From Acinetobacter sp. ANC 4648 (GTDB lineage: Bacteria > Pseudomonadota > Gammaproteobacteria > Pseudomonadales > Moraxellaceae), in the NCBI RefSeq assembly GCF_002135345.1, contig NZ_NEGI01000004.1, positions 92,891-156,890 on the forward strand: a stretch of DNA of 64,000 nt, written 5' to 3'. Both the position numbers and the translations under genes were made by a program. Below the pieces are notes generated by a model. It searched no databases, was not told the origin of the DNA, and saw only the letters and a list, made by a program, of their open reading frames with translations. Position 1 is the first letter of the stretch; each line of letters opens with the position of its first letter. Of this stretch, positions 17,626-17,696 are shown one piece after another.

Positions 17626-17643
17626 TATGCAACTTGTTGCATA
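17626..17643. promoter_or_regulatory. Palindromic operator 1 (fadH side)
   Basis: TATGCAACTTGTTGCATA has perfect 8-bp arms (TATGCAAC/GTTGCATA) around TT. It lies 43 bp upstream of the fadH start. The dyad type, with ATGC(A)AC arms, is the kind bound by PadR-family repressors. The regulator encoded just to the right is the obvious candidate. Confidence 0.8.
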
Positions 17644-17678
17644 AATACTGGATTACTTTATAAGCGAGATTTGATTTT

Positions 17679-17696
17679 TATGCAACATGTTGCATA
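17679..17696. promoter_or_regulatory. Palindromic operator 2 (padR side)
   Basis: TATGCAACATGTTGCATA has the same perfect 8-bp arms as operator 1, with AT at the centre. The two centres are 53 bp apart, about five helical turns. It lies 38 bp before the chosen padR start and overlaps an upstream in-frame ATG, which argues that this ATG is not used. Confidence 0.8.

Follow-up and report, generated by a model that had tools for sequence, protein, structure and literature searches.

Which protein acts on the pair of palindromes in the short gap between fadH and padR of Acinetobacter sp. ANC 4648, and which genes does it switch? The two copies of TATGCAACNNGTTGCATA, both perfect and with identical arms, start 53 bp apart in the 151-bp gap between the divergent genes fadH (minus strand) and padR (plus strand) in the window, that is, the whole stretch of 64,000 nucleotides that was analysed. 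A preliminary description of this DNA had reported two such 18-bp palindromes, and its coordinates and sequence were exact, as was its placing of both sites between divergent fadH and padR (Table 1). The two sites, designated hereafter as op1 and op2, are the only perfect copies of the 18-mer in the whole genome of 3,094,706 bases, against an expectation of ~0.001–0.003 perfect palindrome matches, and the chance of a second perfect palindrome falling within 100 bp of the first was calculated as ~8e-8. Based on sequence comparison, it is very probable that a local AphA-like PadR regulator controls its own gene and both fadH copies of the genome via this one short palindrome.

The minus-strand protein is, judged by its sequence, a full-length two-part FMN/FAD relative of E. 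coli FadH, with residues 4–673 covered by 1ps9 and with the Pfam domains Oxidored_FMN and Pyr_redox_2 representing the FMN and FAD domains. The locus was compared across 149 Acinetobacter genomes, 136 of which contain padR; all counts given below come from related species and are non-independent. The closest named relative of the strain is A. silvestris, and A. venetianus RAG-1 also carries the locus. Downstream of fadH, 77 of the 80 named Acinetobacter loci carry a SnoaL-like gene (gap 55–347 bp), possibly an operon partner, and the alpha/beta hydrolase gene, located downstream of padR in 132 of the 136 padR-bearing species, is a probable member of a padR operon. The preliminary description had also proposed an alternative padR start overlapped by op2. 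A plus-strand ATG does lie at 17687, inside op2 and in frame, but it was rejected as the padR start in favour of 17735, where the MSL residues are conserved and an ATG is found in 138/138 genes compared; the distance from op2 to the padR start ranges from 47 to 62 bp among the compared loci, and the reading frame is not kept.

Table 1. Genes, operators and predicted promoter elements of the fadH–padR locus (positions in the window)
Feature	Position	Strand	Remarks
SnoaL-like gene	15078..15479	-	Pfam SnoaL_2; ~80 bp 3' of fadH, same strand
fadH, 2,4-dienoyl-CoA reductase, 674 aa	15559..17583	-	1ps9 (E. coli enzyme) matched over the full length, E 9e-283
op1, TATGCAACTTGTTGCATA	17626..17643	.	Just 3' of predicted fadH -10; fadH start-site/5' UTR region
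fadH -10, TATAAA (predicted)	17657..17662	-	Plus-strand NTTATA at fixed distance from op2 in 126/135 loci tallied
padR -35, TTGATT (predicted)	17671..17676	+	From scan; commonest hexamer at that place in the genus
op2, TATGCAACATGTTGCATA	17679..17696	.	Fills padR promoter spacer, overlaps padR -10
fadH -35, TTGCAT (possible)	17680..17685	-	Inferred; within op2; 17-bp spacer to -10
padR -10, CATAAT (predicted)	17693..17698	+	Overlaps right arm of op2; CATAAT in 133/135 loci tallied
padR, AphA-like PadR regulator, 181 aa	17735..18280	+	Pfam PadR and Vir_act_alpha_C; AphA match
Alpha/beta hydrolase gene	18296..19207	+	Pfam Abhydrolase_1; 15 bp 3' of padR

Regulator and site of the AphA type

The PadR protein contains an N-terminal PadR winged helix and a C-terminal Vir_act_alpha_C domain, both scoring above the Pfam cut-offs. 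Among proteins of solved structure, its best match is Vibrio cholerae AphA (1yg2, E 9.5e-25), and the predicted PadR structure (pLDDT 87) matches the fold of 1yg2 with TM scores of 0.77/0.81. A helix at approximately residues 33–44, WNATHQQIYREL, is nearly invariant across the genus and resembles WKASHQQVYREL of AphA; by analogy with the winged-helix family, this helix would contact DNA. PadR of Bacillus and VanR, which respond to p-coumarate and vanillate, respectively, are local repressors encoded beside their targets and released by ligand. Repressors of this PadR/VanR type have a fold similar to that of the Acinetobacter protein (5x11, 5z7b, 6lg2), but their ligands and targets relate to aromatic acids and their sequence scores are lower than that of AphA.

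The AphA consensus obtained by ChIP-seq is the palindrome ATGCAA-N4-TTGCAT (PMC6855506), which is contained exactly in op1 and op2. With a regulator of AphA type and a site of AphA type side by side, the adjoining PadR very probably uses the palindromes as its operators. The two systems are alike in two-domain architecture, fold (TM ~0.8), an almost identical helix (SHQQVYREL/THQQIYREL) and palindrome, whereas the identity of the proteins is only ~28–30% and the neighbours of PadR are fadH and the hydrolase gene, its predicted targets being the fadH genes and the hydrolase. Neither the high identity nor the same neighbourhood that would mark PadR as an orthologue of AphA, a quorum-sensing virulence regulator, was found, and no connection with quorum sensing or virulence was seen. 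One row, L172, represented a wrong stretch and was disregarded. The AphA-type PadR proteins, best known for the control of Vibrio virulence, would extend to fatty-acid breakdown.

A PadR paralogue (28–31% identical) was identified at L177 and L178 (genomes G065 and G044), with the helix ASFQQIYRD, in which Phe replaces the invariant His. The palindrome upstream of this paralogue is altered as well, being TACTCAACTTGTTGAATA in L177, and regulator and site possibly changed together; these are two examples only, and a stop codon interrupts the copy at L178.

Conservation, a third operator and co-loss with padR

The gene fadH is divergent from padR in 135 of the 136 padR-bearing species, the remaining one being without a fadH match at this place. 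A search for the 18-mer beside fadH in related genomes, suggested as a check in the preliminary description, recovered op2 with at most one mismatch in 133/136 of these species. Of the 134 loci with op2, op1 was recognisable in 128 (at most two mismatches in 113), and six had no recognisable op1.

A single one-mismatch site exists in the genome of Acinetobacter sp. ANC 4648, ~30 bp before a second, unlinked fadH paralogue (fadH2, 55% identical); the chance of such a site landing there is ~2e-6. In padR-bearing species, a site is present within 130 bp of fadH2 in 44 of 52 loci, always starting at -42 to -56. This conserved operator indicates that fadH is a real target, which bears on the reading that PadR controls only itself and the hydrolase gene and that fadH is a bystander in the shared intergenic region. 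That reading would accommodate the better conservation of op2 compared with op1 and the presence, in most AphA-like PadR genes, of a site beside their own start, but against it stand the lone operator before fadH2, the position of op1 on the fadH side and the recurrence of the padR–fadH pair in another family, and we regard it as very unlikely.

At loci L170 and L171 (genomes G143 and G131), the PadR helix is unchanged, yet neither operator is recognisable, in a gap of ~320 bp that is about twice as long. The sole site on the fadH2 side in these two genomes is an odd two-mismatch copy far before fadH2. In a clade comprising L201, L207 and L210 (G038, G043 and G112), the fadH2 operator has been lost and op1 is also degraded, and padR and op2 are kept. 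Both exceptions count against the model.

Four species (G001, G032, G077 and G142) have kept fadH in the absence of padR, and no operator site was found in any of them. On the tree they occupy two or more distinct positions, representing at least two independent losses, and the absence of sites where padR is absent gave a Fisher p of 1e-6 with kinship ignored. Before fadH2, no site was found in three padR-less species with near-complete assemblies; a fourth, G030, has a degraded fadH2 site in an assembly that is only 65% complete. Seven species have neither padR nor either fadH gene. That the palindromes are bound by a regulator unrelated to PadR would be at odds with this joint absence, with the match to the AphA motif and with the recurrence of the site beside other AphA-like PadR genes, and, as far as sequence comparison can tell, such a regulator is highly improbable.

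The locus would give a defined genus-wide regulon in which a single regulator acts through a single type of operator on two fadH genes. A genome-wide search allowing up to three mismatches returned 27 sites, not many more than the 18 of a reversed control, and a wider regulon in this genome was rejected given the small excess and the location of the checked sites mostly inside coding regions. A site near an acyl-CoA dehydrogenase gene (G015, G055), traced in 30 loci, was present in only eight, with 3–4 mismatches, and was not counted. One two-mismatch site of the genome-wide search, at L005, is intergenic.

Promoter layout and mode of control

Promoter elements were predicted from a scan and from an alignment of 66 dereplicated padR–fadH gaps (Table 1). 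The stretch from the fadH -10 to op2 contains no indels in the consensus of this alignment, indicating a rigid promoter block, in which op2 occupies the padR -35/-10 spacer and abuts the fadH promoter, with op1 immediately beyond the predicted fadH -10. The candidate fadH -35 element is weak, sharing 3/6 consensus bases.

It is probable that op1, op2 and the fadH2 site are operators of an autoregulated local PadR repressor acting on padR–hydrolase, fadH–SnoaL and the unlinked fadH2. A PadR dimer on op2, between the -35 and -10 of its own gene, would autorepress padR–hydrolase and also extend over the upstream portion of the divergent fadH promoter. On op1, a second dimer would cover the fadH start region, holding off fadH and probably the SnoaL-like gene, and the third operator would place fadH2 under the same repressor. 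PadR would be released by a ligand; the most plausible candidates are metabolites of unsaturated fatty acids, and an unsaturated acyl-CoA that needs FadH may reasonably be guessed. The link from the palindromes via PadR to fadH and the hydrolase, made in the preliminary description, is supported by the AphA-type match, the genus-wide conservation, the co-loss and the fadH2 site. That description had not noted fadH2, the SnoaL-like gene after fadH or the identity of the palindrome as the AphA-type motif.

Repression as the sign is suggested by operator position only. PadR might instead bind these sites and activate fadH, or activate fadH while repressing itself, since AphA can both activate and repress (PMC6855506) and op2 keeps a fixed distance from the fadH -10, on its upstream side, where an activator could act. 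We consider activation unlikely: op1 lies past the predicted fadH -10 and the fadH2 site is near the start codon, positions that both fit repression, and op2 overlaps the padR -10.

Repression by PadR need not involve contact between the two operators. The preliminary description had suggested cooperative or looping repression over a spacing of about five turns. Among the 128 loci with both operators, the start-to-start spacing is 42 bp in 95, 41 bp in 14, 49 bp in eight, 50 bp in two, 52 bp in two, 53 bp in five, 54 bp in one and 55 bp in one, and the 52–55 bp class, about one turn above the common class, occurs in several separate places on the FadH tree. Spacings of 41–42 and 52–53 bp correspond to ~4 and ~5 turns, and the 32 bp of an outgroup (see below) to ~3 turns, as would be expected if the operators acted by cooperative binding or looping with a fixed helical phase. 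However, ten species have spacings of 49–50 bp, out of phase, which argues against a strict phasing rule between the operators, and six op2 loci are without a recognisable op1. DNA this short is stiff, making a loop unlikely. Each operator lies on promoter DNA, so that direct occlusion suffices and looping is unneeded. AphA does bind some adjacent sites cooperatively, but its cooperative pair at tfoX gives a single 37-bp footprint, that is, sites that nearly touch (PMC6855506). A phase-dependent mechanism is therefore quite unlikely; looping as the main mechanism was rejected on the variable spacing (41–55 bp) and the loci lacking op1, and the interval between the operators is promoter. By analogy with AphA at nearly touching sites, weak cooperativity between op1 and op2 is possible.

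Without FadH, polyunsaturated fatty acids would jam beta-oxidation, yet over-induction of the enzyme is toxic in E. coli, where fadH is repressed by FadR (PMC12691678). An enzyme that is needed yet toxic in excess must be tuned in dose, providing a reason for a dedicated switch. Control of E. coli fadH has been attributed to FadR together with ArcA (Feng and Cronan 2010, as cited in PMC9973270). The E. coli and Acinetobacter systems would share repressor control of fadH, conditional on the sign proposed here for PadR, and a role in fatty-acid breakdown. In contrast, FadR is a global regulator of the GntR family released by long-chain acyl-CoA, whereas PadR is a local regulator of a different family with a different site. 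More tentatively, and with some doubt, PadR may be devoted to sensing an intermediate of polyunsaturated fatty acids, such as a 2,4-dienoyl-CoA, and may tune both FadH enzymes jointly across Acinetobacter separately from any general fatty-acid regulator; if so, it would serve as a specialised relief valve against the jamming of beta-oxidation. No paper linking PadR to fadH was found in the open-access literature searched, subscription journals being mostly outside the search, in line with the preliminary description, whose author was aware of no such circuit. The PadR–fadH circuit would be a well conserved gene switch of a familiar kind, and one that has apparently not been reported before.

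Occurrence outside Acinetobacter

Most AphA-like PadR genes elsewhere in the order have the palindrome upstream of their own start, with a perfect match in 8/14. This ties the protein subgroup to the site independently of fadH and suggests that the use of the AphA palindrome is ancient in this subgroup. In another family of the order (G244), a 43% identical PadR is encoded divergently from a 70% identical fadH, and the gap contains the TGCAAC-type palindromes GTGCAACTAGTTGCAA and TTGCAACTGGTTGCAA, 32 bp apart. In a further genome, G275 (locus L279; another family), padR and a gene for a SnoaL relative (59% identical) are divergent and accompanied by similar sites, a pairing that supports the SnoaL gene as a member of the same regulon. 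Within the order, PadR proteins of comparable similarity were present in just 18 of the 392 genomes, so that the pairing is patchy there. At six loci (L281, L284, L286, L290, L292 and L293), an AphA-like PadR is divergent from a gene encoding a FAD-dependent amine-oxidase-like protein, with the palindrome between them, forming a putative local circuit of like kind.
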